NCBI RefSeq assembly: GCF_022430525.1
Contig: NZ_CP092519.1
Span: forward strand, 372,001-436,000
Source of the DNA: Cetobacterium somerae
GTDB taxonomy: Bacteria; Fusobacteriota; Fusobacteriia; Fusobacteriales; Fusobacteriaceae
DNA length: 64,000 bases
Reading direction: 5' to 3'
Shown here: positions 8,780 through 58,084 of the stretch, in pieces
Layout of the letters: each line of letters opens with the position of its first letter
How positions within the stretch are numbered: position 1 is the stretch's first letter
Made by a program: the position numbers and the translations under genes
The notes under the pieces: model-generated
Seen by the model: only the letters and a program-made list of their open reading frames with translations
Database searches by the model: none
What the model was told of the DNA's origin: nothing

Positions 8780-9664
8780 CTAAGCAATTTTTTTGTACTC
8801 AAAAGTTGATAATTCAAAAGCTTCATTTGGAGTAGAATATCCTAAAGAACTATGTCCTCTTTCTGAGTTGTAAAAATTTAAATATGATTGGATTCCTTTG
8901 TATAATTCCAGTGTTGTTTTATGCTCGTAAAGATATAAATAATCATATTTAATTGTTCTCCAAAATCTTTCTATCCAGACATTGTCTAAACAACGGCCTT
9001 TTCCATCCATACTTAATAAAGCGCCTGATGAAAGCACTGTTTCGATAAACTCATTACTTGTATATTGACTACCTTGATCCGTATTTAATATTTCTGGTGA
9101 ACCATAAGTTTTTACTGCTTCTTTGTAACAATTAATGCAGAAATCTTTAGACATACTGTTTGACAATTCCCAAGTTAGTATTTTACGACTATAAACATCA
9201 ATTATTGCAGTTAAATACATAAAACCTGTTGGTGTTTTTAAATACGTAATATCAGTTGACCATACTGCATTAGGCTTTTCAATCTTTAGATTTCTCAAAA
9301 GGTAAGGGAATTTCTGCGCTCCAGCTTTAGGTTTACTTAAATTTCTTTTAGGTGCAATTCCTTTAAGGTTTAGCTGCCTCATGAGTCTTCTAATGACTGA
9401 TCTTTTTACAGGTATTCCAGCTCTATTCAAAGCTGCAGTAATACGTCTAGAACCCGCTGAAGGATCTAGACTGTATTGTTCCTTTATTTTTTCTTTTAAT
9501 TGAACCTGAATATCAACTTTAGGCCTAGGAGCGTAATAGTATGAGCTTCGACTAGCGCCAAATATTCTACATTGTTCTGAGATGCTAAAATAAAGGTTTT
9601 CTTCGATTAAAGAAACTGGATTACCTAATAAATCAGCTATCTCTCGAGCTTTTTTTTTAACCAA
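8780..9664 (-). CDS. IS3-family transposase OrfB (DDE integrase core)
   Basis: A 294-residue catalytic part with an HTH_21-type region (FGASRSSYYY, AALNRAGI) and the rve/DDE domain. The acidic residues sit in VWSTDITYLK (first D), LNTDQGSQYTS (second D) and NVWIERFWRTIK (E), with the usual FYNSERGHSSLGYSTP tail. It opens at a TTG inside the A-run shared with orfA and is most likely made as an OrfAB fusion by -1 frameshifting. The domain is complete with no visible lesion, so the element may be active. Confidence 0.9.
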   Translation of the reverse strand: MVKKKAREIADLLGNPVSLIEENLYFSISEQCRIFGASRSSYYYAPRPKVDIQVQLKEKIKEQYSLDPSAGSRRITAALNRAGIPVKRSVIRRLMRQLNLKGIAPKRNLSKPKAGAQKFPYLLRNLKIEKPNAVWSTDITYLKTPTGFMYLTAIIDVYSRKILTWELSNSMSKDFCINCYKEAVKTYGSPEILNTDQGSQYTSNEFIETVLSSGALLSMDGKGRCLDNVWIERFWRTIKYDYLYLYEHKTTLELYKGIQSYLNFYNSERGHSSLGYSTPNEAFELSTFEYKKIA

Positions 9665-9921
9665 TCGTTCTCAGAGCTAAGTTTACCAATTTTAGCATAA
9701 AGCTCATGTTGTTGCTCTTCAAGAAGTTCAATCTTTTTAGAGCTAGACATATCTTTAGAAAAAACAGAGATACCCGCCGATTTAAACTCATCTACCCAAC
9801 GAGATATTTGAGAAGGTGCAATATGATGTTCTGAAGCGATTTCTTGAAGAGTTTTTCTTTCTTTAAGTGCTTCCAAAACAACTGCAAATTTAAATTCTGG
9901 TGAATATGATTTTCTAGCCAC
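9637..9921 (-). CDS. IS3-family OrfA, DNA-binding HTH
   Basis: A 94-residue protein with an HTH_Tnp_1 domain (YSPEFKFAVVLEALKE, TLQEIASEHHIAPSQISRW) followed by a leucine-zipper-like helix (EQQHELYAKIGKLSSENDWLKKKLER). It starts at ATG with an AGGAGG site. Its 3' end overlaps orfB by 28 bases across a nine-A run followed by G (9650-9658 on the plus strand as T), the classic IS3 slippery site. Confidence 0.88.
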   Translation of the reverse strand: MARKSYSPEFKFAVVLEALKERKTLQEIASEHHIAPSQISRWVDEFKSAGISVFSKDMSSSKKIELLEEQQHELYAKIGKLSSENDWLKKKLER

Positions 9922-13223: not shown

Positions 13224-15302
13224 ATGTTAAAATTTCTACTCTTTTCTCTTTTATTGTGCACAAATTTGATAGGAAAAGAGCATGTAGTTTTATTAGAAAA
13301 TGAAAATAGTTTTTTCTTCTATAAAGAGAGAGATGAATATAAGGGATTATATCCAAAAATATTTGAAGATATTAATAAAAAAAAGAAAATAAATTTAACT
13401 TTAAAAGAATTAGATACAAATTTAATATTAGATATGGAAAAAGGTAAAGATATTTTAATAATGGATTTAATAGAAAATGATGAAAGAAGAGAAAAATATT
13501 ATTTTATACCTACCTTTTTTTATTTAAAAGCTAATATGTATTTTTTAAATAATAATTATATAGATATTACAAATTTTTATAAAAAAAGAGTTGGAATCAT
13601 AAAAGGAACATATTTAGATAAAGAGTTTTTAGAAAAATATGATTTTTTATATAGTGATGTAATAGACATTGAAACTAGAGAAAAAGGATTACAAATGCTA
13701 AAAGATGGAGAAATTGATGGTTTTGTAGCAGATAATCAATATGGATTTAAAGATAATTTGAAAAAAATAGAGTTAAATAGAATTCCAATTATGGTGACAA
13801 CTTTAGCAGTACCCAAAATTCAGAGAAAACTTTATAAGGATTTAAAAAAATATTTTGAAGAAATGTCTCCTGAAGTACTTAAGAATATGATAAGTGATTC
13901 TAGAAAAGAATATTATAAAGATAAATTTAAGGATAAATATATAAATTTAAAAAATAAATCAATAGATGTAGTTTTTCCAACAGAGAAAAGCAATTATCCT
14001 CTCTATTATATAGAAAATAGTGAAGAGAAAGGATTAGCTATTGAATATTTAAAAGATGTAGGAGATATATTAGGTGTTAAAATAAGAAAAATCTTTTATT
14101 CAAAAGATGAGGATTGGAAAAATAGTGATATAACAATAGCTTCAACAGTAGAAAGTAGTATTAGAGATAATGAGAATTATACAAATCCATATTATACTTT
14201 AACTCCTATTATTTTTAATAGGAAAGAAGAAGGATTTATAAATAATTTAGTAGAAGCAAGAAAAAAAAGATTTGCTGTTGTGGAAAATTCATATTATATG
14301 GATTATTTGAGAAAATTTTTAAAAGAAGAAAATTTTATATATGCTAAAGATATTGATGAAACAATTGAAAAAGTAAGAAAAAAAGAAGCTGATTATAGTA
14401 TTAGTGATTATAAAACATTAATCAATAAATTGTATAATAATGGTTATGATAAAGAAATTAAAATTGCTGGAATTTTAGATAAAAAGTATGATGTATCAAT
14501 GGTTGTAAACGAGAAAGAACATGAGTTATACGAAGCATTAAAAGATATTTCAGCTAGTTTTTTAAATGAAAATATGAGTAAAAATATTTATTTAGAAAAA
14601 AATAGTTATGAAACAGATAATTCTAAAAAATTTTTAATATTTTCAATTGGAATTTTATTTATTAGCTTAATTTTACTGTATAAAGGGAAAAAAAGTTTAA
14701 CAGAAAAAAGAAAATATGAAGATTTGATGTTATCTTTAGTTTCATCGTTAGAGGCTGTTAATCAATTTAATGATCTTGAAACAGGAAATCATATAAAGAG
14801 ATTAAACTTATATTCAGAACTTTTAGCAAATAAATTAGGATGTAATAAAAAATTTTGTGAAGAAATAGGAAGAGTAGCATCTCTTCATGATGTAGGGAAA
14901 ATTGGTATAGATAGAAGCATATTAAAAAAACCAGGAAAACTAAATGAGGAAGAGTTTAAAATAATAAAAGAACATCCTGAAATAGGTTATGAAATTATAA
15001 AAAAATCAGGTGTAAGCTTAATGGCTGAAAATATAGCGAGATATCATCATGAAAAATGGAATGGAAAGGGATATCCTAGAGGTTTAAAAGGTTTGGAAAT
15101 ACCTTTAGAGGCACGAATTGTATCAATCGTAGATGTTTATGATGCATTGAGACAAAAAAGAGTTTATAAAGATGGGTTTACACATGAAAAAGCTATAGAA
15201 ATAATAAGAAGTGAAAGTGGAAAAAGCTTTGATCCTAATGTAGTAAAGGTTTTTTTAGAAAATGAATTTAAATTTGAAAGATTATTTAATTCACATATAT
15301 AA
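13224..15302 (+). CDS. membrane-bound HD-GYP c-di-GMP phosphodiesterase with periplasmic solute-binding sensor
   Basis: A 692-residue sensor-effector protein. After a signal peptide come two tandem SBP_bac_3-like periplasmic modules (about 20-235 and 245-465), one transmembrane helix (about 469-488, FLIFSIGILFISLILLY) and a cytoplasmic HD-GYP domain. The metal-binding HD is in SLHDVGKIGID (about 552) and the GYP loop is YHHEKWNGKGYPRG (about 605-620). HD-GYP enzymes hydrolyse cyclic di-GMP; the dual binding-protein module suggests control by an amino acid or other small ligand. No GGDEF domain is present. A c-di-GMP riboswitch occurs at 43.4 kb in the same window. Confidence 0.88.
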   Translation: MLKFLLFSLLLCTNLIGKEHVVLLENENSFFFYKERDEYKGLYPKIFEDINKKKKINLTLKELDTNLILDMEKGKDILIMDLIENDERREKYYFIPTFFYLKANMYFLNNNYIDITNFYKKRVGIIKGTYLDKEFLEKYDFLYSDVIDIETREKGLQMLKDGEIDGFVADNQYGFKDNLKKIELNRIPIMVTTLAVPKIQRKLYKDLKKYFEEMSPEVLKNMISDSRKEYYKDKFKDKYINLKNKSIDVVFPTEKSNYPLYYIENSEEKGLAIEYLKDVGDILGVKIRKIFYSKDEDWKNSDITIASTVESSIRDNENYTNPYYTLTPIIFNRKEEGFINNLVEARKKRFAVVENSYYMDYLRKFLKEENFIYAKDIDETIEKVRKKEADYSISDYKTLINKLYNNGYDKEIKIAGILDKKYDVSMVVNEKEHELYEALKDISASFLNENMSKNIYLEKNSYETDNSKKFLIFSIGILFISLILLYKGKKSLTEKRKYEDLMLSLVSSLEAVNQFNDLETGNHIKRLNLYSELLANKLGCNKKFCEEIGRVASLHDVGKIGIDRSILKKPGKLNEEEFKIIKEHPEIGYEIIKKSGVSLMAENIARYHHEKWNGKGYPRGLKGLEIPLEARIVSIVDVYDALRQKRVYKDGFTHEKAIEIIRSESGKSFDPNVVKVFLENEFKFERLFNSHI

Positions 15303-15306
15303 AAAT

Positions 15307-15341
15307 AAAAGAGAGCTAAATACTATATTTTGCTCTCTTTT
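15307..15341. terminator. bidirectional terminator
   Basis: AAAAGAGAGC/GCTCTCTTTT stem shared by the convergent HD-GYP gene and the decarboxylase operon. Confidence 0.8.
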
Positions 15342-15344
15342 ACT

Positions 15345-16730
15345 TTAAGTTATTATACTGTAAAAAGAGATTAAACCTAAGAGTAAAATTATAAAAGATA
15401 TAAATTTATCTTTAGTATTTTGAAAAAAGTATCCTGTTTTTCTCTTAGTATCAAATAAAAAATAGATAGTTCCAAGTGCATAAATTGTTAAGGATTGGAA
15501 AACATAATTAAGTCCAGATGAATAAATCATCCAAATTCCATAAATTACTCCACCTATTCCCCAATAAAAACATTTTTTATGAGCATGTTGAATTGCTATT
15601 TTCATTAAAAACATAGCTGAAAAAATATAAGGAATAAGAATCATACAAGATGCCGAATTTGTAATAACAAGATATGCATTTTGTGCTGACAATGAAAGAA
15701 AAAATATAATTTGTTTTAAAATACCATTTGTGAAAAGAGCTCCAGAACAAGCATCATTTTTATTCACTTTTTTTAAAAACTTAGGAAATAAATCATCTAA
15801 AGCTACATTATAAGGTATTTCTGCTGTTAGAAAAGTCCAACTAAGCCAAGCTCCAGCAACAGATATCAAAACAGCTAAATTAACTAAAGTAGCTCCCACT
15901 GGTCCAATAACAGCTTCAATGATATATGATAAAGCTGGATCTTTAAGTGCAGCTAATTCAGCATCACTTAGAACACCATAGCTCAAAAGTACAATAAAAA
16001 CATATAAAAATAAAGATATGAAATAGCCAATCATAGTTGCTTTTCCAACTAATTTAATATTAGATGCTTTATCAGATATAACAACAGCACCCTCTATTCC
16101 TATAAAAGCCCACAGAGTTTGTAGCATACAGCCTTTAACTTGAGTAAAAATGCTAGCATGATTAAATGAACCACCCCAAAAATCTTTTATAAATATTTGG
16201 CGAGTAAAACCAATATATAAAATAATAATACCTAAAAAAATAGCTACAACTTTACCTATTGTAGCTAAAACATTTATAAATGTAAGTCCTATATCTCCAG
16301 CAAGAGCAATTCCAATTACTATCCAAATTAAAATACTTCCTAAAAGGATGCCGTTGAAACTACTAATCGGTCCAATACTGGGAAAAAAGTAATTCAAAGT
16401 TTGAACTAATAAAACTGGGTAGCTAGCATTGCTTATTACATTTGAAATCCAGTATCCCCATGCGGAATGAAAACCTGAAAAAGTTCCAAAACCTTCTTTG
16501 GCATACTTATAAATTCCATCTGTTACATCTGGAGTTTCAGTAGCTAAAATTTGAAAGGTTTTGGCTAAAAAAAGAACTCCAATACCAGAGATTAACCATC
16601 CGATTATGGCAGCTCCAGCAGAGGATGATTGAGCAATGTTTTTAGGCATATTAAATATTCCTCCGCCAATCATAGAACCGACAACAATTGTTGATAATGC
16701 GAAAATTCCTAAAGAGTTCTTTTTTTCCAT
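15345..16730 (-). CDS. APC-family amino acid/amine antiporter, likely histidine/histamine
   Basis: A 461-residue transporter with about 12 membrane helices. The N-terminal ALSTIVVGSMIGGGIFNMP carries the substrate-carboxylate-binding GSMIGGGIFN motif of basic amino acid/polyamine antiporters (ArcD/AdiC/HdcP type). I chose the ATG at 16730; a TTG nine bases upstream sits too close to the GGGAGG site. It is the last gene of the operon, 30 bases after the histidine decarboxylase gene, and ends at the terminator. The adjacency suggests it exchanges histidine for histamine, but the substrate is inferred. It is a paralogue of the antiporter at 18600-20063. Confidence 0.82.
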   Translation of the reverse strand: MEKKNSLGIFALSTIVVGSMIGGGIFNMPKNIAQSSSAGAAIIGWLISGIGVLFLAKTFQILATETPDVTDGIYKYAKEGFGTFSGFHSAWGYWISNVISNASYPVLLVQTLNYFFPSIGPISSFNGILLGSILIWIVIGIALAGDIGLTFINVLATIGKVVAIFLGIIILYIGFTRQIFIKDFWGGSFNHASIFTQVKGCMLQTLWAFIGIEGAVVISDKASNIKLVGKATMIGYFISLFLYVFIVLLSYGVLSDAELAALKDPALSYIIEAVIGPVGATLVNLAVLISVAGAWLSWTFLTAEIPYNVALDDLFPKFLKKVNKNDACSGALFTNGILKQIIFFLSLSAQNAYLVITNSASCMILIPYIFSAMFLMKIAIQHAHKKCFYWGIGGVIYGIWMIYSSGLNYVFQSLTIYALGTIYFLFDTKRKTGYFFQNTKDKFISFIILLLGLISFYSIIT

Positions 16731-16760
16731 AGTAGCCAAAACCTCCCTAAATATCTAGAA

Positions 16761-17639
16761 CTATTTTTTTACGATAGGTTCTAATCCTTGAACATCTAAC
16801 CACTGAGAAAGAGTTAAGTTATTTAATTCTCCAAATCCTTTTTCAGGAACAGCTTTTCTAGCTAAAGTAACATAAGGTCCACATGTTAGAGATGTTCCAA
16901 TTTCTCCAGGTTTCATAATAGTATAAGCAAATCCTACATAAGTTCTATCGTATGCAACATGAGAGTCTTTTCCACATTCAACAACAGACCAAACGATAGC
17001 TTTTCTATGATCTTCTAAGAATTTTTTTAGATCGTCTGGATTGTCATTTTCAGTCCAAATTCCAGCATCTTCAATAAATAAGCTCGCATCTTTATCTCTA
17101 TCTTTAGCTATAGATATAGCGATAAAACACCAAACACCATACCCTTCATTCTCTTTAAATTCTCTATTTTCAGTAGGTCTATATGCAGTAACCCCTTTGT
17201 TAGCACAAATCATATGTGATCCAGGAAGAGGAGTGAATCTTCTTTTAGATTCAGTTCCAAAAAGTTCAACACCAGCCTCTAAAAGAGGTTTAGCATCATA
17301 AACTTTTAAAATTGAACCATCAAATTGAGGAACTTCTAAAACAGTTGGGTTTGAATCTTCAGCAATTGAATCATGCTTAGCTAAGTCATATCCCCAAACT
17401 TGTCCAGCAAGTCCACAGAAAGATGAAGCAGTTAACATGTTAATTTGTCCAACATAAGCATCGTTAACCTCAGCTCTATCATAAGCTACAATACCATCTA
17501 TTAAAATATCGTCAGTTTTAGGAACTGTACCTACAGAAACTTTTAAAACTGAAACATATCCGTTTCCAGTTGAACCAGGAGCTCCATATCCATCACAATA
17601 ATCCTCATAAAAGCTAATCGCAGTTTTGTCAATTTTCAT
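16761..17639 (-). CDS. hdcA: pyruvoyl-dependent histidine decarboxylase proenzyme
   Basis: A 292-residue protein that matches the Lactobacillus-type proenzyme along its length (GNGYVSVLKVSVG, DGIVAYDRAEVNDAYVGQINM, GTESKRRF, GYGVWCFIAISIA, ASLFIEDAG). The self-cleavage site TASSFCG is intact. By family knowledge, cleavage between the two serines (72 and 73 here) yields a beta chain and an alpha chain whose N-terminal serine becomes the pyruvoyl cofactor; the catalytic glutamate is E190 in FIEDAG. The enzyme converts histidine to histamine and CO2, consuming a proton. No hdcB-like gene is adjacent. It is flanked by ctlX and an antiporter, with spacings of about 20-30 bases. Confidence 0.9.
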   Translation of the reverse strand: MKIDKTAISFYEDYCDGYGAPGSTGNGYVSVLKVSVGTVPKTDDILIDGIVAYDRAEVNDAYVGQINMLTASSFCGLAGQVWGYDLAKHDSIAEDSNPTVLEVPQFDGSILKVYDAKPLLEAGVELFGTESKRRFTPLPGSHMICANKGVTAYRPTENREFKENEGYGVWCFIAISIAKDRDKDASLFIEDAGIWTENDNPDDLKKFLEDHRKAIVWSVVECGKDSHVAYDRTYVGFAYTIMKPGEIGTSLTCGPYVTLARKAVPEKGFGELNNLTLSQWLDVQGLEPIVKK

Positions 17640-17657
17640 TTTTGTTCCTCCTTTATT

Positions 17658-18581
17658 TTAAAAAAGTTCAGCAATCATGCATCGTACGGATCCACCACCA
17701 TAAGTTTCAATGGTAGAAATATCTGAATAAATAATTTCAGAACTTTTTTTAATTACATCGATTTGTTCTTTTGTAAAGCCTTCAAAGGCTGATTTAGACA
17801 TAAGTGTATAACATTTTCCCTGAGAGTTTTTTAATTCTAAAACATTTCCACAAAATTTTAAAACTTGATTAAGGGATATATCAATAATCTCCTTTTTTGA
17901 ATTTAAAATAGAGTTTTTTAAATTTTCTCTTTCTTTTAAATTAGGAATAGATTCTAGACAAACTACAACAAAATTTTCAGTGACCCCCATCATGACATTG
18001 GTATGGTAAATAGGAGTTTCTTTATTGTTGAAATTTTGTGTTGAGTGAAACTTTAACGATCTATAGTTAGTTAATTTACAAAACTCTTCTAAAACATCTT
18101 CGTTTGCTCTAGGAGAAAGGGAACAATAGGCGATTTTATTGACTCTATCTAAAACTAACGCTCCTGTTCCTTCTAAAAATTTTTTTTCGTTTTCAAAAGA
18201 TGTCAAATCTATAATATTAATAGACTCGTTTTCATAAATTTTTTTTAAACTAGGTAGAAATTTAACTCTTTCTAATCGTCTATTTTCTGCAAACATAGGG
18301 TAGACAATAAGAGTATTGTTTTGGTGAGAACTAAACCAATTATTTGGAAAAATACTATCAGGAGTATATGGAGTGGACGTATCTTGAATAACGTCCACTT
18401 CAATTCCAACATTTTTTATTTTATTAACAAGAGTATCAAACTCATTCAATGCTTTTTTTTCTACAAGTTCTGGATTTTCTTCAAGATTTTTTTGATAAGC
18501 GTTATTAACTGCAGTTTGAGCATTATAATAAAACTTAACAGGTTTAATCATTAGAACCTTACTTGTTATTTGACTGTTCAT
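17658..18581 (-). CDS. ctlX: citrulline-utilisation hydrolase (CtlX-type, amidinotransferase fold)
   Basis: A 307-residue protein of the amidinotransferase/arginine-deiminase superfamily. The motifs PDSIFPNNWFS, FLEGTGALVLDR, IYHTNVMMGV and the C-terminal GGGSVRCMIAE with the nucleophile cysteine are all present. CtlX proteins hydrolyse the ureido group of citrulline to give ornithine. The start at 18581 fits homologues (MNSQITSKVLMIKPV); an ATG nine bases upstream is possible. It sits 18 bases downstream of an antiporter gene and in the same operon as an Orn/Lys/Arg decarboxylase, which suggests citrulline to ornithine to putrescine. A true arginine deiminase or other guanidino hydrolase remains possible. 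Confidence 0.8.
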   Translation of the reverse strand: MNSQITSKVLMIKPVKFYYNAQTAVNNAYQKNLEENPELVEKKALNEFDTLVNKIKNVGIEVDVIQDTSTPYTPDSIFPNNWFSSHQNNTLIVYPMFAENRRLERVKFLPSLKKIYENESINIIDLTSFENEKKFLEGTGALVLDRVNKIAYCSLSPRANEDVLEEFCKLTNYRSLKFHSTQNFNNKETPIYHTNVMMGVTENFVVVCLESIPNLKERENLKNSILNSKKEIIDISLNQVLKFCGNVLELKNSQGKCYTLMSKSAFEGFTKEQIDVIKKSSEIIYSDISTIETYGGGSVRCMIAELF

Positions 18582-18599
18582 TATACTCATCTCTTTTCA

Positions 18600-20063
18600 T
18601 TAACCTAATAGAGCTTTATAGTTCATGATTAAATAGATTAATCCTAAAATTCCTAATATGAATAAAACTATAGAGAAAACTTTTTCTTCTTTATTGAATT
18701 CAGGATTACTAGGATCAAACTCTTTTCTTGCTTTCATAAAGAATGGAATACCAATAGCATATATAACTGCAGCTAAAAGCATATAATTTAAACCAGCTGC
18801 ATAAACTAACCATAAACCATAAATTGTTCCTAAAAGTCCTGTAATTTCTGCATTTTTTCTACTTGCAAAGATATTAGTAGGATAGTTGTCATTTTTAGCA
18901 GCAATTTTCCATAAATATGCAGTACAAACGATATAACAAGGTAAAACCATTACTCCTGTAATACTTAGCATTAAATTCCATGCATTATTAGAGAAATATA
19001 CAACAATCATAGTTATTTGCATAATTATACTAGAAATAAGTAAAGAGAATGATGGAGAATCATTTTTGTTTACTTTAGCAAAAGCTTTTGGGAATGTTTT
19101 TCCTTTAGCTGCGGCAAATGGTAATTCTGCAAGCATAATAGTCCAAACAAGCCAAGAACTTAATATAGCTATCATAACTCCAATATTCATTAACCAATCT
19201 CCCCATTGACCAACAATTCCACCTAAAACAGCTGCAGTTGATGGAGCAGCCATATTTGAAAGTTGACCTTGAGAATAATGTCCAAGAGGAAGTAAAGATA
19301 ATAAAACATAAAGAATTAAACATCCTAAGAATCCTAAAAGAGTTGCTTTACCAACTTCAGCCTGATCTTTTGCTCTATCCGACACAACAACAGCACCTTC
19401 GATTCCAATAAATACCCAAAGAGTTACAAGCATTGTACCCTTAACTTGACTCAAAAGACTACCAAGAGGTTTATCAGAAAGAGTTGTAATAGTATCTGTA
19501 CCCCAGAAGTTAGTGAAGAAGAAACCAACTTTAAAGAAGAAAGCTGTAATAAGTAGGAACAGTACAATTGGAACTAATTTACCAATAGTACCTATTGTAT
19601 TTAACGAAGTTGCTCCTTTAACACCAGCTAAAACAATAAAGTAAATAATCCAAATAACTAAAGAACCACCTATAACAGAGTTAAAATTATTTCCTCCAGT
19701 AAAGTAACCTGGAAAAAAATAATCCAAAGAATCCATTAATAAAACTGCATAACCAATATTAGCAAAACAGTTACAGATCCAATAACCCCAAGCCATAAGG
19801 AAACCAGTGAAATTTCCAAATCCAAGTTCACCATATGCATAGATTCCTGTTGTTGCATCAGGTCTAGCTTCTGCTAGAATTCTAAATGTATTAGCAACAA
19901 ACCACATACCTACTCCCGTTATAACCCATGCAATAGTAATTGCTCCAGCACCAGCAGATTGAGCCATATTTTGAGGTAGATTGAATACTCCACCACCAAT
20001 CATAGCACTAATAACAACGGCAGTAAGAGCTACTAAACCAAGTTTTTTGTTATCATCAGCCAT
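18600..20063 (-). CDS. APC-family arginine/ornithine-type antiporter
   Basis: A 487-residue membrane protein with 12-13 helices. The signature AMIGGGVFNLPQNMAQSAGAGA near the N-terminus and GTMLVTLWVFIGIEGAVV in the middle identify it as a basic amino acid/polyamine antiporter of the ArcD group. It follows the Orn/Lys/Arg decarboxylase gene by 18 bases, so it probably exchanges that enzyme's substrate for its amine product. It is clearly homologous to the antiporter at the operon's end (shared GIEGAVVVSD and KVNKND segments), pointing to duplication with division of labour. The substrate is inferred. Confidence 0.85.
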   Translation of the reverse strand: MADDNKKLGLVALTAVVISAMIGGGVFNLPQNMAQSAGAGAITIAWVITGVGMWFVANTFRILAEARPDATTGIYAYGELGFGNFTGFLMAWGYWICNCFANIGYAVLLMDSLDYFFPGYFTGGNNFNSVIGGSLVIWIIYFIVLAGVKGATSLNTIGTIGKLVPIVLFLLITAFFFKVGFFFTNFWGTDTITTLSDKPLGSLLSQVKGTMLVTLWVFIGIEGAVVVSDRAKDQAEVGKATLLGFLGCLILYVLLSLLPLGHYSQGQLSNMAAPSTAAVLGGIVGQWGDWLMNIGVMIAILSSWLVWTIMLAELPFAAAKGKTFPKAFAKVNKNDSPSFSLLISSIIMQITMIVVYFSNNAWNLMLSITGVMVLPCYIVCTAYLWKIAAKNDNYPTNIFASRKNAEITGLLGTIYGLWLVYAAGLNYMLLAAVIYAIGIPFFMKARKEFDPSNPEFNKEEKVFSIVLFILGILGLIYLIMNYKALLG

Positions 20064-20081
20064 TTTAAACCCTCCTTAAAA

Positions 20082-22337
20082 TTAATTTTTTATAACCATT
20101 GTGTGGAATCTTCTGATTCCATCGTTATCAACAAAAGCTTCAATTCCATGTATATCACTAAAATATCCAGGGAATATTCTTTCAAATTCTTCTCTAGCTA
20201 AAAGAAAATCTAAAATAGGTTTAGAAATTTCATCTATTTTTTCTCCACCCATTAATACAGGGATTCCTGGAGGATATGGAACAACAATAACTCCAGCGAC
20301 CCTATTCATACAATCTTTTATAGGTAAATGCTCAATATTTCCTCTAAAAACTTCTCTAGAAGCTTCAGCAGGCGTTAGTTCTTGTTTAGGAATAATTTGG
20401 AATGCTTTATCCATAAGCTCTAAAAGTTTTGATTCGATAATGTATTTGTGCATATCTAAACAATGATCTTTTAATCCTTTAGTGCTATATTTTTCAGGAT
20501 AAGAATTAACTAATTCTGGAAAAATTTCAATAAGAGGAGTATTTTTGTCAAAATCTTTTTTAAAGTCCATTAAAACTTTGATAAGAGCTTCTTGTTTTGT
20601 AATAGTTGTACCTATAGAGTGAAGAAATAACAGAGAGTAAGTATCTGTTTTTTCATTAACTACTCCTTTATCAATAATATAATTACTTAAAATAGAAGCA
20701 GGAATACCAATCTCTTCATAATTACCATCAATATTTAAACCAGGACATTTTAATGTTAACTTGATTGGATCTAACATAACGTAGTCTTTTTCGATATCGT
20801 TAAATCCATGCCAATTATTAGAAGAGTCTAATGTCCAACAGTTTTGATTTTCTAATAAATATTTATCAGGAACATCCTCAAAATTAGTTAATACACCATT
20901 GTATGAAACTTTTTCTGGTTGCCATAAAGAGAAAAACCATTGATTAAAACTAGCATATTCTTTATTTAATTGAGCAATTCTTTTTCTAAAATGAATTGCA
21001 TTTAAAATAGTTTCATCCATAAGCTCTTTACCAGAAAAATCCATCATAGCAGTTGATACATCTAAAGATGCAATCATACTATATTGTGGCGATGTAGATC
21101 CATACATTAAGTATGCTTCGTCAAATACGACAAAATCAACCTTATCTTTAGTACCATCTTTAACATGAAGCATAGAAGCTTGAGAAAATGCTCCTAATAA
21201 TTTATGTGTAGAATGTGATGCAAATATTGGAGGATGTTCAATAAAATTATCAGATTCAGTCATGGCGTAGTGATTTTTGTATATAGGGTGGAATTTAGCG
21301 TAAGCATACCAGGCTTCATCAAAATGAAGATTTTCAACGTTATTATTTAAAGTTTCTTTGATTTTATTGACATTATAACAAAGACCATCGTAAGTTGAAT
21401 TTGTTAATGCAGACATTTTAATTTTTTGTTTTTTCTGTTCAGCAGTTAGCTTTGAGTTCTCAGCAATCATTGTATCGATGTATTCTTTTGTAAATTCGTT
21501 TAATTTAACAGGACCAATGATACCAAGACTATTTCTTCTAGGAATCATATACATAGGAATAGCTTCTGTTATAACCATACCGTAATTAAGAGATTTATGA
21601 CAGTTTCTATCAACAAAAGCTAAGTTGTCTTTAGTAACTCTACCTTTCCAAATTACCTGATTAACTGAACTTGTTCCATTTAAAATATAATATGTTTTAT
21701 CAGCTGAAAAGACTCTAGCTGAATTGTTTTCGGCATCTTTAACAGGTCCTTCATCATCTAAAAGAGATCCCAATTCAGGAACAGATATAGACAAATCTGC
21801 TCGAAGAGTATTTTCTCCATAAAAATCTAACATCATTTTACCAATAGGATTAGTCATAAACATAAGACCACCAGCATGTCCAGGTGTATGCCAAGGATAT
21901 TTAAATTTTTGTGTATAATCCATTAATTCACCGAAAAAAATAGGTTTTATAGATTTAATATATTTTTCAAATTCTATTTCTAATTGACCTGTTAAAAAAG
22001 GGATACTATCTTCAAAAATATTCATTACAAGATTTATTGAATTTAAAACTTGTAAAGGTATCGTTGAAGAATCTTTTTCTGTTAATACAATAATAGGAAT
22101 TTTTGGATTTGTTTTTCTAACAAATTTAACTAATTCCTCTAGATTTTCATCTGAATTTAAAACAACTCCAATAAGAGCTTTGTTAGATGAATAAACTCTT
22201 TTAAAATCAGTTTTATTGTCAACAAAAGAAGTAGCGAAAGATTCTAAAAGGGTGTCTAATTGCTTAGAAGACTCGTAAGTTGAATCTAATTCATGAAAAA
22301 CTAACAAGGACCAATTTAAATAATCAATAGACTTCAT
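20082..22337 (-). CDS. Orn/Lys/Arg decarboxylase (PLP fold type I, biodegradative)
   Basis: A 751-residue PLP-dependent decarboxylase. The N-terminal wing domain (about 1-125) is followed by the PLP domain. The cofactor lysine lies in ASHSTHKLLGAFSQAS (about residue 378) with the upstream FDEAWYAYAKF strand; the C-terminal domain contains VPYPPGIPVLMGGE. The size and architecture match acid-inducible arginine, ornithine and lysine decarboxylases (AdiA/SpeF/CadA group), which take up protons in the cytoplasm. The sequence alone does not settle the substrate; the neighbouring CtlX makes ornithine a good candidate and arginine the main alternative. It is the first gene of the five-gene operon. 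Confidence 0.87.
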   Translation of the reverse strand: MKSIDYLNWSLLVFHELDSTYESSKQLDTLLESFATSFVDNKTDFKRVYSSNKALIGVVLNSDENLEELVKFVRKTNPKIPIIVLTEKDSSTIPLQVLNSINLVMNIFEDSIPFLTGQLEIEFEKYIKSIKPIFFGELMDYTQKFKYPWHTPGHAGGLMFMTNPIGKMMLDFYGENTLRADLSISVPELGSLLDDEGPVKDAENNSARVFSADKTYYILNGTSSVNQVIWKGRVTKDNLAFVDRNCHKSLNYGMVITEAIPMYMIPRRNSLGIIGPVKLNEFTKEYIDTMIAENSKLTAEQKKQKIKMSALTNSTYDGLCYNVNKIKETLNNNVENLHFDEAWYAYAKFHPIYKNHYAMTESDNFIEHPPIFASHSTHKLLGAFSQASMLHVKDGTKDKVDFVVFDEAYLMYGSTSPQYSMIASLDVSTAMMDFSGKELMDETILNAIHFRKRIAQLNKEYASFNQWFFSLWQPEKVSYNGVLTNFEDVPDKYLLENQNCWTLDSSNNWHGFNDIEKDYVMLDPIKLTLKCPGLNIDGNYEEIGIPASILSNYIIDKGVVNEKTDTYSLLFLHSIGTTITKQEALIKVLMDFKKDFDKNTPLIEIFPELVNSYPEKYSTKGLKDHCLDMHKYIIESKLLELMDKAFQIIPKQELTPAEASREVFRGNIEHLPIKDCMNRVAGVIVVPYPPGIPVLMGGEKIDEISKPILDFLLAREEFERIFPGYFSDIHGIEAFVDNDGIRRFHTMVIKN

Positions 22338-22388
22338 AATAAAAACCTCCTTAATTGGTAGAACAAAAATTAACTCACGATATTGTTA

Positions 22389-22408
22389 AAAAAAAAAGGG
22401 GTGTTTCC
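22389..22408 (-). terminator. weak terminator-like hairpin between FUSC gene and decarboxylase operon
   Basis: On the minus strand AAAGG pairs with CCTTT around an AAACACC loop, followed by about ten T. The stem is only five pairs, so partial termination at best. Confidence 0.35.
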
Positions 22409-22409
22409 T

Positions 22410-23372
22410 TTAAAAAATATTTTTTATTCTTATATTGATAAGTTCTTTTATATTTTCTATAAGTAAGAAATAAGTTGCTTTGTTTTCAATGTTTAAATTA
22501 TTTTCATCAATTTCTTTTTTAAACTTATCTTCAGAGCGTTTTATTTTATTTAAAAGAATATTGTAAGTGTAATTATTTGAACTTAGTGTGGCTAAATCTT
22601 TTAAAATTATAGCTAACTCAGATGTTATTGAGATGTTTGTGGAGATTTTGTTAAAGCACTCTCTAATTTTTAAAAGAGTTAGATATTCTGAAAATTTTAA
22701 AGAGTAATTTTTAGAAATATCAACTTTTTTAAAAAATAATTTATTATCTTTTTCCATTTCGACTAGTTGTTTACAGTCATCTAGATTAATTTTAAGTTCT
22801 TCAAAAAGTTCGTCTTGTTTCAATGAAACGGCTTTGTATTTTAAAGCTTTAGCAAAATCAAAAATAATATCTTTCATTATAGAATCAATTTTTTCTAGTT
22901 GAGAAATAATTTCATTGTTTTGACTAGGCATATATAGATTGGAAACTATAGCACAGAGAACTCCAACCAATAAAAGAATATATTGATCTAAAACAAATAT
23001 TAAAGATACATTTTCATCGAGTAAAAAATGTGTAGCTAAAACAATATTCGTAAAAAATCCTTGCATTAAATTAAAACGAATACAAAGAGGCATAAAAATA
23101 GCTGTAAAAATAACTAAAGAAATAGGGTTAAATTTAAAAATTTTAATAATTGTGGCAGATAAAATCAATCCAAAAGATGCAGCTAAAACTCTTTCAAAAG
23201 AACTTCTTAGAGATGCTTTTCGTGTGCTTTCTAAACTTAGAATACAAATTGTAGCTGCAGAGTATTTATATTCTAAAGAGAAGTATTGAGCAATGAGAAC
23301 AGCTACATATGGACCAATCATATTTTTTAAAACTTTATGTTTGTCATAAGTGCTTAGTTTATCAAAAATCAT
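22410..23372 (-). CDS. FUSC/aromatic acid exporter-type membrane protein
   Basis: A 320-residue protein. The first 150 residues form about five closely packed helices with the IGPYVAVLIAQYFSLEY and TRKASLRSSFERVLAASFG segments typical of the aromatic-acid exporter/FUSC (DUF939-like) family. The C-terminal half is soluble and helical with coiled-coil character. Members are proposed exporters of aromatic or organic acids; substrate unknown here. It is encoded upstream of the decarboxylase operon on the same strand, with only a weak hairpin between them. Confidence 0.75.
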   Translation of the reverse strand: MIFDKLSTYDKHKVLKNMIGPYVAVLIAQYFSLEYKYSAATICILSLESTRKASLRSSFERVLAASFGLILSATIIKIFKFNPISLVIFTAIFMPLCIRFNLMQGFFTNIVLATHFLLDENVSLIFVLDQYILLLVGVLCAIVSNLYMPSQNNEIISQLEKIDSIMKDIIFDFAKALKYKAVSLKQDELFEELKINLDDCKQLVEMEKDNKLFFKKVDISKNYSLKFSEYLTLLKIRECFNKISTNISITSELAIILKDLATLSSNNYTYNILLNKIKRSEDKFKKEIDENNLNIENKATYFLLIENIKELINIRIKNIF

Positions 23373-43316: not shown

Positions 43317-43366
43317 AGCCAGTTGCACTTATATTTTGGCTAAACCAAAATGTAACTGCAACTGGC
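43317..43366 (-). terminator. riboswitch expression-platform terminator
   Basis: On the minus strand AGCCAGTTGCAGTTACATTT and the matching downstream arm form a stem of about 20 pairs with a mismatch, followed by TTTTGTATTTT. Its 5' arm is the 3' end of the c-di-GMP aptamer, so aptamer folding and termination compete. Confidence 0.8.
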
Positions 43367-43422
43367 TGTCATTTTAAAGACCCTATAGTTTTGCGTCATA
43401 GGATTTCTCCTACTTTGCCTAT
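43355..43422 (-). ncRNA. c-di-GMP-I (GEMM) riboswitch
   Basis: On the minus strand the conserved elements occur in order: GGCAAA, a hairpin GTAGGA-GAAA-TCCTAT with GAAA tetraloop, GACGCAAAACTATAGGGTCT (the GACGCAAA...GGG core) and ATGACAGCCAGTTGC (tetraloop-receptor side and closing strand). It heads the transcript of three secreted DUF4402-like proteins. The promoter is immediately upstream. Confidence 0.88.
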
Positions 43423-43437
43423 TTATATTATATAATA

Positions 43438-56295: not shown

Positions 56296-56321
56296 TTAAA
56301 GTTTCGAAAATTTAATATTTT

Positions 56322-56521
56322 AGGTAGAGGTTGCGAATGACAAGAGTAACTCAATAGAGCTGGACAGAGCGCTGAAGTTGAGTGAAAGGGGAATTCGCCG
56401 AAATAAAGGTTAAGTCAAAAATCTTTGTTGGGCATGTGAAAAAAATTCACATGACTGTCATCAGATAGAATCTGGTGTTGTGCTATCCAAAATTTGTGAT
56501 ATATTTTGCAGATTAGCTACC
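56322..56521 (+). ncRNA. lysine riboswitch (L box)
   Basis: The 5' core GGTAGAGGTTGCGAATGACA with AAGAGTAAC, then GTGAAAGGGGAATTCGCCGA, GTTGGGCATG and ACTGTCATC follow the lysine-aptamer order. P1 is GGTAG (5') with CTACC (3', 56517-56521). That P1 3' strand is also the start of the terminator stem, so lysine binding would disfavour termination. Confidence 0.93.
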
Positions 56522-56547: not shown

Positions 56548-56599
56548 ACCTAAAATTTCAGTGAAACTAAAATATAAAATTAAACTTGGAGGTTTTAGG

Positions 56600-58084
56600 A
56601 TGAACAGAATAACAGAACTATTAAAATTAAGTCCAGTTGCTATATTAGCAATGTTAATGTTTATGGGATATGATGCTTTAATAGCAGCGCCTATAGCAAC
56701 AGTATATGCAGCGTTAGTTGCAGTAGTAATTGAGAAGAAAAAGGTGAATGACATAATTGATGCAGTTATAAATAATGCGAAGGAGATGCAAGTTGCATTT
56801 TTTATTTTAATGGTAGCATATGCTATGGCAGAGGTATTTATGTCAACAGGAGTTGGAGCTTCTATTATAAATTTAGCTTTAAATGTAGGATTGACAGGAA
56901 GAACAGTAGCAGTTGTAGGAATAATTGTAACATCAGTTTTATCAATAGCAACAGGAACAAGCTGGGGAACATTTGCTGCTTGTGCACCTATATTTTTATG
57001 GCTTAACCATATCGTTGGAGGAAATATTGCTTTAACTGTGGGAGCTATAGCTGGTGGAGCATGTTTTGGAGACAACATAGGGCTTATATCAGATACAACA
57101 ATTGTTAGTTCTGGAATTCAAAAAGTTGAAGTAATAAAAAGAATAAGACATCAAGGGTACTGGTCAGGAATGGTTTTAATTTTAGGAATTATATCTTTTT
57201 ATGTGGCGGGAGTTGTGATGGGATTACCGACAACGACAGGAGATGCAGCAACAGCTATTGGGCAAATACCAGAAGAAGTTTGGACAGTACTAGCTGAGAA
57301 AAGAGAGTCTGCAGTTACACTGTTAAATCAAGTGAAAACAGGTGTACCGACTTATATGATAATACCTTTAATTCTTGTTTTAATAGCAGCATTTAGAGGT
57401 TTAACAACACTACTATGTCTGTTTATAGGAATATTTGCAGCGTATATATTAGGTATGTTTGCAGGAACAGTTGAAAGTACAGGAGCATTTTTAAATCTAT
57501 TATACTCTGGATTTGAGGGTGCAGGATCTTGGGTAATTGTAATGATGATGTGGGTTGCAGCATTTGGTGGAATAATGAAGTTGATGGATGCATTTAGACC
57601 TTTATCAAATATAGTTGTTGCAGTTTCGAAAAATGTAAGACAATTGATGTTTTGTAATGGAGTACTATCTATATTAGGAAATGCTGGTTTAGCAGATGAA
57701 ATGGCTCAGATAGTTACTATGGGACCTATTATAAGAGAAATCGTTGAAAAAAATGTTGAAGGATCTCCAGAGGATATTGAAACATTAAGACTTAGAAATG
57801 CAACGTTTAGTGATGCATTGGGAGTATTTGGATCACAATTAATTCCATGGCATGTATATATAGGATTCTATTTAGGAATAGCTCAAGCTGTATATCCATT
57901 ATATAAATTTACTGCAATGGATATAATTAAATTTAATTTCTTAGCATTAATCGCAGTATCAACAATTTTAATAGCTACATTAACAGGGTTAGATAGATTT
58001 ATTCCAAGATTTGGTTTACCAAGTGAACCAAAAGTAAGACTAAAAAAAGCAACTGTTGAAAATTGTGTAGCAGAAAAGGCTTAA
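56600..58084 (+). CDS. Na+/H+ antiporter NhaC-family protein, candidate lysine transporter
   Basis: A 494-residue membrane protein with about 12 helices and NhaC-family motifs (ATGTSWGTFAACAPIFLWL, GGACFGDNIGLISDTTIVSS, GNAGLADEMAQIVTMGP). The ATG at 56600 follows GGAGG; upstream in-frame starts lie in the riboswitch terminator. NhaC relatives under lysine riboswitches are annotated as lysine transporters (LysW-like). Because the switch looks ligand-activated, it may serve lysine export or uptake for fermentation. Ends at a terminator. Confidence 0.85.
   Translation: MNRITELLKLSPVAILAMLMFMGYDALIAAPIATVYAALVAVVIEKKKVNDIIDAVINNAKEMQVAFFILMVAYAMAEVFMSTGVGASIINLALNVGLTGRTVAVVGIIVTSVLSIATGTSWGTFAACAPIFLWLNHIVGGNIALTVGAIAGGACFGDNIGLISDTTIVSSGIQKVEVIKRIRHQGYWSGMVLILGIISFYVAGVVMGLPTTTGDAATAIGQIPEEVWTVLAEKRESAVTLLNQVKTGVPTYMIIPLILVLIAAFRGLTTLLCLFIGIFAAYILGMFAGTVESTGAFLNLLYSGFEGAGSWVIVMMMWVAAFGGIMKLMDAFRPLSNIVVAVSKNVRQLMFCNGVLSILGNAGLADEMAQIVTMGPIIREIVEKNVEGSPEDIETLRLRNATFSDALGVFGSQLIPWHVYIGFYLGIAQAVYPLYKFTAMDIIKFNFLALIAVSTILIATLTGLDRFIPRFGLPSEPKVRLKKATVENCVAEKA

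Follow-up and report, generated by a model that had tools for sequence, protein, structure and literature searches.

A five-gene amine operon of Cetobacterium somerae, possibly assembled around an antiporter and a histidine decarboxylase

A 64,000-nucleotide stretch of the 2.97-Mb Cetobacterium somerae genome (contig NZ_CP092519.1, positions 372,001 to 436,000; referred to as the window in what follows) carries an amine operon of five contiguous open reading frames on its minus strand (window positions 15345-22337). In order of reading, these encode an ornithine/lysine/arginine-type decarboxylase (OKR), an antiporter (AP1), a citrulline-hydrolase family protein (CtlX), a pyruvoyl-type histidine decarboxylase (HdcA) and a second antiporter (AP2). 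We favour the explanation that this operon was built stepwise around a histamine core formed by AP1 and hdcA, an explanation which, taken as a whole, we hold to be evenly balanced between right and wrong. In its sequence, the cluster has the layout of a transcription unit. Both hdcA and CtlX are intact, the latter with the citrullinase signature; the winged pyridoxal phosphate (PLP)-dependent decarboxylase is distinct from AdiA, and the two antiporters, both of the APC family, differ from each other. Cetobacterium is a common fish-gut genus, and an operon for histamine and probably cadaverine bears on both fish gut physiology and fish spoilage.

Parts of this arrangement are already published. 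A 2021 study named clusters of decarboxylase, antiporter and hdcA from Fusobacteriota, Actinobacteriota and Bacteroidota an "arginine/histidine three-component system" and counted C. somerae among its putative histamine secreters, so that both the OKR-antiporter-hdcA triad and the predicted histamine secretion were on record (PMC8465708, available excerpts). As in the clusters covered by these excerpts, a winged PLP decarboxylase, one AaxC/TIGR00905-type antiporter and a pyruvoyl hdcA stand side by side here; the C. somerae operon differs from them in that ctlX lies between antiporter and hdcA, an ArcD-like second antiporter stands at the end, and the PLP enzyme resembles LdcA rather than AdiA. 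The grouping had been called unusual in the initial annotation, which holds for the remainder of the operon and not for the published triad. A literature search returned no account of ctlX in hdc operons, of an ArcD-like AP2 at the operon end, of an LdcA-like OKR or of the series of AP1 partners described below.

The first gene, OKR (20082..22337, 751 amino acids), encodes an extended, winged PLP-dependent basic amino acid decarboxylase of LdcA-like type and is likely a lysine decarboxylase. It is followed on the same strand by AP1 (18600..20063, 487 amino acids), an APC-family amino acid/amine antiporter of the lineage that partners hdcA (HdcP/HdcC-like), by ctlX (17658..18590, 310 amino acids), by the hdcA proenzyme gene (16761..17639, 292 amino acids) and by the ArcD-like AP2 (15345..16739, 464 amino acids). 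CtlX and AP2 probably start at ATG 18581 and ATG 16730, respectively, matching the starts of their relatives. The four intergenic gaps from OKR to AP2 measure 18, 9, 18 and 21 nt, and a clear GGAGG-type ribosome site is present at three of them. Thus the initial annotation was right to read the five codirectional genes as one operon, which the open reading frames, the family models and the gene order conserved in three genomes confirm; its spacing of about 10-30 bases proved slightly too wide (9-21 nt). The family models likewise agree with its predicted histidine-to-histamine branch, second basic amino acid decarboxylase, pair of paralogous antiporters and citrullinase-type hydrolase. We infer that the five genes form a single transcription unit.

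For HdcA, the scores exceed the cut-offs of both family models (TIGR00541, 478.8 against 346.65; PF02329, 505.8 against 25). The TAS/S (Ser-Ser) cleavage site and the YDRAE and FxE (F-I-E) motifs align to the beta and alpha chains of 1PYA and 1HQ6; we take the Ser-Ser pair to be the self-cleavage site and the two motifs to belong to the active site. Histidine is strongly implied as the substrate.

Gene combinations across Fusobacteriota

The initial annotation had proposed a survey of hdcA and ctlX neighbourhoods, and this was carried out in 98 Fusobacteriota genomes (given G numbers, G000 being the genome of the window). hdcA was found in 14 of them, and ctlX exceeded its model cut-off in 27. 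All five genes occur in the same order in G000, G005 and G011/L002, and the HdcA protein sequence is identical in L002, an uncultured Cetobacterium metagenome-assembled genome. G006 carries OKR-AP1-ctlX-hdcA (AP2 missing) and G004 carries AP1-ctlX-hdcA. Since the same genes recur in the same order in three genomes, four of them in G006 and three in G004, the five-gene arrangement is not a product of chance. In all five of these genomes the operon occupies one chromosomal slot, between an aromatic-acid-exporter-like (ARAE) gene and the GAPDH gene.

Smaller combinations are found elsewhere. In G013, AP1-hdcA stands alone at another locus and the slot is occupied by an unrelated permease; the same pair is present in Fusobacterium, Clostridium tarantellae and Eubacterium tenue. 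AP1 had been taken for the antiporter belonging to OKR, an assignment that its pairing with hdcA alone in these four cases does not support. G003 has ctlX-hdcA with no antiporter, and G004 has, in addition to its operon, OKR-AP1 alone on contig 3 and a solo AP2 on a third contig. AP1 is found beside AdiA only in G009, G013 and G048, and G049 (L103, 7980-14953) has a four-gene cluster OKR-AP1-AdiA-hdcA, in which three decarboxylases accompany one antiporter. Together with the OKR-AP1-...-hdcA order of four genomes, this cluster provides the cases in which two decarboxylase genes and one exchanger gene are joined. Because these combinations form a nested series, AP1-hdcA appears as the core, with OKR, ctlX and AP2 as stepwise additions. 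The G004 copies also suggested recombination within AP1, between OKR-AP1 and AP1-ctlX-hdcA, as the origin of the operon, and sliding identity along AP1 gave no clear switch point.

The same series can be read more narrowly, with ctlX and AP2 as passengers of unrelated use (citrulline serving as a nitrogen source) that are joined to the operon by position, and AP1-hdcA, with or without OKR, as the functional unit. AP1-hdcA without an adjacent ctlX in G013 and in Fusobacterium species fits such a reading, as do the solo AP2 of G004 and the ctlX genes that adjoin unrelated genes (ffh, deoB, yifB) in other Fusobacteriota. However, all five ctlX genes of the genus sit in this operon, and these five, together with one from a neighbouring genus, lie within ~30 nt of hdcA; we therefore regard mere passengers as unlikely. 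The link between ctlX and hdcA also allows the role of CtlX to be probed in settings other than growth on citrulline.

Two further observations concern these genes in other sequences. In L023 (Bacterium BMS3Abin01, contig BDUA01000045.1), an OKR-clade decarboxylase, a distant APC antiporter and hdcA stand in a row, and this antiporter type also adjoins hdcA in L025 and L026. In one Fusobacterium genome that retains AP1-hdcA (L097 (G027), L068), ctlX is split into two reading frames with stops.

Candidate substrates of the OKR decarboxylase

The OKR protein has matches to PF01276, PF03711 and PF03709 (Pfam OKR_DC_1, 454.9 bits), and lysine is the substrate that we favour for it, with somewhat better than even confidence. 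Among characterised enzymes it is nearest to LdcA (43.7% identity, against 37% for AdiA, 37% for LdcI and 29.7% for SpeF). The nearest solved relative is 6q6i (647 bits), ahead of AdiA (547-566), LdcI (504) and the ornithine decarboxylase 1ORD (320); its deposited molecule name is "biodegradative arginine decarboxylase", and we take it to be the lysine decarboxylase LdcA of P. aeruginosa. At 39 alignment columns that separate six arginine decarboxylases from LdcI, LdcC and LdcA, OKR has the lysine decarboxylase pattern at 22 and the arginine decarboxylase pattern at 2, and in the tree its clade is separate from AdiA (support 100/99). A true AdiA is encoded elsewhere in the genome (60% identical to E. 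coli AdiA, 1195 bits against a cut-off of 1167), as is a separate ornithine decarboxylase-arginase fusion, of a type whose Fusobacterium relatives decarboxylate ornithine (PMC8503589). With these two enzymes present, lysine would be the substrate left unserved, and cadaverine is a likelier product than putrescine or agmatine, since OKR is nearest to LdcA and the true AdiA lies elsewhere.

Should OKR decarboxylate arginine, as the initial annotation had allowed, the operon would be the published arginine/histidine three-component system with ctlX added, and its second amine would be agmatine, not cadaverine. Such clusters of Fusobacteriota are annotated as adiA/antiporter/hdcA (PMC8465708, available excerpts), and the AdiA model PRK15029 is the best NCBIfam match of OKR. 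Yet the score of 652.7 bits is far under the cut-off that the genome's other copy passes, identity to AdiA is 37% against 60% for that copy, and 22 of the 24 decided columns follow the lysine pattern; moreover, two arginine decarboxylases would then be adjacent in the single cluster of G049. We consider an arginine substrate improbable, and AdiA itself was ruled out as the identity of OKR by the distance from the cut-off and the true AdiA elsewhere. A likely consequence is that "adiA" in the published histidine/arginine clusters would be reclassified as LdcA-like, with a different predicted amine.

A linear pathway would instead connect CtlX with OKR: ornithine made from citrulline would be decarboxylated by OKR, and AP1 or AP2 would swap citrulline or ornithine for putrescine. 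The initial annotation had included this possibility; ctlX and OKR share the operon in four genomes, and ornithine would otherwise need another outlet. Against this, OKR is most distant from ornithine decarboxylases, both in the comparisons above and in its score with the SpeF model (435.8, cut-off 1310), ctlX remains with hdcA where OKR is missing (G004, G003), OKR-AP1 occurs without ctlX on contig 3 of G004, and the genome has its separate ornithine decarboxylase-arginase fusion, an activity treated for Fusobacterium in PMC8503589. We judge the pathway to be quite unlikely, and a citrulline-ornithine-putrescine route within the operon was discarded on the relationships of OKR and the gene combinations.

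Some observations temper the case for lysine. The column comparison was repeated without LdcA because LdcA is the nearest kin of OKR; when LdcI and LdcC made up the whole lysine set, OKR was lysine-like at 33 columns and arginine-like at 20, and LdcA itself gives 39 and 30 in this count. In the tree, LdcA enters an unresolved fork together with OKR, LdcI/C and Adc. Finally, recombination between LdcA and Adc has been reported (PMC8983666).

CtlX, the two antiporters and their putative joint function

Both antiporters exceed the cut-off of TIGR00905 (409; AP1 533.8, AP2 432.8). AP1 falls short of the histidine-histamine antiporter models (NF040512, 544.7 against 725; TIGR04298, 113 against 750), clusters in the tree with the hdcA partners of C. 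tarantellae, E. tenue and Fusobacterium, and shares 43-50% identity with HdcC or antiporter proteins from Limosilactobacillus, Tetragenococcus and S. capitis. Whether AP1 stands beside AdiA alone, OKR alone, hdcA alone or all of them, its copies have equal residues at 19 positions of the AdiC pocket region, except for one C/S change; in G004, the copy with OKR but no hdcA and the copy with hdcA but no OKR branch close together in the tree. AP1 is best read as one shared, broad exchanger, the simplest reading, because its pocket looks alike whether an arginine decarboxylase, OKR or hdcA stands beside it. With this natural series one can ask directly if a single exchanger is able to handle amine pairs of different chemistry. 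In the tree AP2 falls in a clade of its own; it scores below the ArcD model (TIGR03810, 425.1 against 591), shares 39% identity with the S. capitis ArcD and, at pocket positions where it departs from AP1, carries residues like those of ArcD. It may exchange citrulline for ornithine.

CtlX exceeds the cut-off of NF046062 (396.8 against 334). Its catalytic Cys is present, and the motifs FPNN, HTN, EGTG and GGGSxRCM are conserved in all aligned rows; as in known CtlX citrulline hydrolases, FPNN and HTN replace the Asp residues of arginine deiminases (PMC9007349). A sequence search found no solved structure. Arginine deiminase (arcA), carbamate kinase (arcC) and a true ornithine transcarbamoylase are missing from the genus, where the carbamoyltransferase match is no more than distant, and CtlX would for this reason be the sole known means by which the genus turns citrulline into ornithine. 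In proteobacteria, ctlX stands beside ornithine cyclodeaminase or aruG (PMC9007349), whereas here it stands beside hdcA in a fusobacterium without arcA and arcC. Two other roles were set aside. A functionally different CtlX subfamily in hdc operons was rejected, as the motifs do not differ and no clade-specific columns were found under the test used; a maturation helper of HdcA replacing HdcB is unlikely, as Fusobacterium has hdcA without an adjacent ctlX and G013 has no ctlX at all.

On the stepwise reading, histidine would enter against histamine via AP1 and be decarboxylated by HdcA, and OKR would convert lysine to cadaverine, a pair that AP1 might exchange as well, as one exchanger serves two decarboxylases in Ligilactobacillus saerimneri. 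HdcA and OKR would each take up one proton, CtlX would convert citrulline to ornithine, CO2 and ammonia, and AP2 would likely act as a citrulline/ornithine or related exchanger. The joint effect would be pH defence, because each of the three reactions consumes protons or liberates ammonia, together with some proton motive force through charge-moving exchange. The consumption of protons proposed in the initial annotation is upheld in so far as all three chemistries would consume them, and a role in acid resistance may be expected. A more far-reaching version, in which a promiscuous exchanger for histidine and lysine decarboxylation is joined to CtlX-driven citrulline/ornithine exchange by AP2 as three proton-consuming cycles, an acid defence akin to the arginine deiminase pathway but without ArcA, ornithine transcarbamoylase and carbamate kinase, is tentative and on balance doubtful.

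Known systems share features with this scheme. The lysine/ornithine system of L. saerimneri 30a (Romano et al., cited in PMC8928434 and PMC8465708) likewise has two decarboxylases with one common exchanger, as proposed here; as far as these citing excerpts describe it, it uses lysine and ornithine with a PotE-type exchanger and genes 24 kb apart, whereas here histidine would be one substrate and the genes are contiguous. The hdcC-hdcA-hdcB-hisS plasmid clusters of Limosilactobacillus and Tetragenococcus and the hdcA-antiporter plasmid of S. capitis, which also bears arcA and arcD, resemble the operon in combining hdcA with an AP1-related antiporter; unlike them, it lacks hdcB and hisS and has the extra PLP decarboxylase, ctlX and AP2. 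As in the arginine deiminase pathway (arcABCD), the citrulline branch would end in ornithine, CO2 and NH3 with an ArcD-like exchanger, but it would yield no ATP from carbamoyl phosphate, since the other enzymes of that pathway are missing.

Several considerations weigh against this scheme. The substrates of OKR, AP1, AP2 and CtlX, the directions of transport and the acid defence are predictions drawn from sequence relationships. The identical pocket residues of AP1 may, on a weaker reading, simply reflect positions that are not the ones determining specificity. The citrullinase role of the CtlX family rests on mutant fitness data, not enzymology (PMC9007349), and no regulator or pH sensor was found for the operon.

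Transcription signals and neighbouring genes

A conserved 30-nt promoter-like element, AAAGGAAA-N16-AACAAT (22382..22411, minus strand), lies 44 nt ahead of the OKR start codon. With identical spacing it precedes the operon in G000, G004, G005, G006 and G011, whether this begins with OKR or with AP1; it also stands ahead of AP1-hdcA at the different chromosomal locus of G013. Each of these genomes has no more than one to three copies; the reversed pattern, as a control, occurs 0 or 1 times. G009 and G012 retain the gene that lies upstream of the slot, with neither operon nor element following it. The element thus appears to travel with the operon, being present with it in several genomes and missing from these two slots. 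One further copy in G013 precedes an unrelated lipoprotein gene, for which reason the element probably represents a type of promoter, as opposed to an operator specific to this operon. A sigma-70 scan gave no more sites than shuffled sequences.

The operon ends at a putative intrinsic terminator (15302..15346, minus strand), a hairpin of 45 nt (-19.4 kcal/mol) whose outer stem has 15 pairs and which leads into T-rich sequence. The operon shares this terminator with the convergent gene, and a hairpin scan restricted to loops of 3-8 does not return it. This convergent gene (13224-15302, plus strand) encodes an HD-GYP protein with two periplasmic SBP_bac_3 stretches of amino-acid-binding type. 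It is probably an independent neighbour, because it is also present in G013, whose slot has no operon.

Elsewhere in the window, a transposase gene pair (IS3-like by eye) lies a few kb from the operon (8780-9921, minus strand). A lysine riboswitch (56317-56493, plus strand; 115 bits) precedes a large membrane-transporter-like open reading frame (56561-58084), in the same window as the likely lysine decarboxylase, and a c-di-GMP-I riboswitch (43354-43429, minus strand) precedes three small secreted protein genes in a row (43272-41869).

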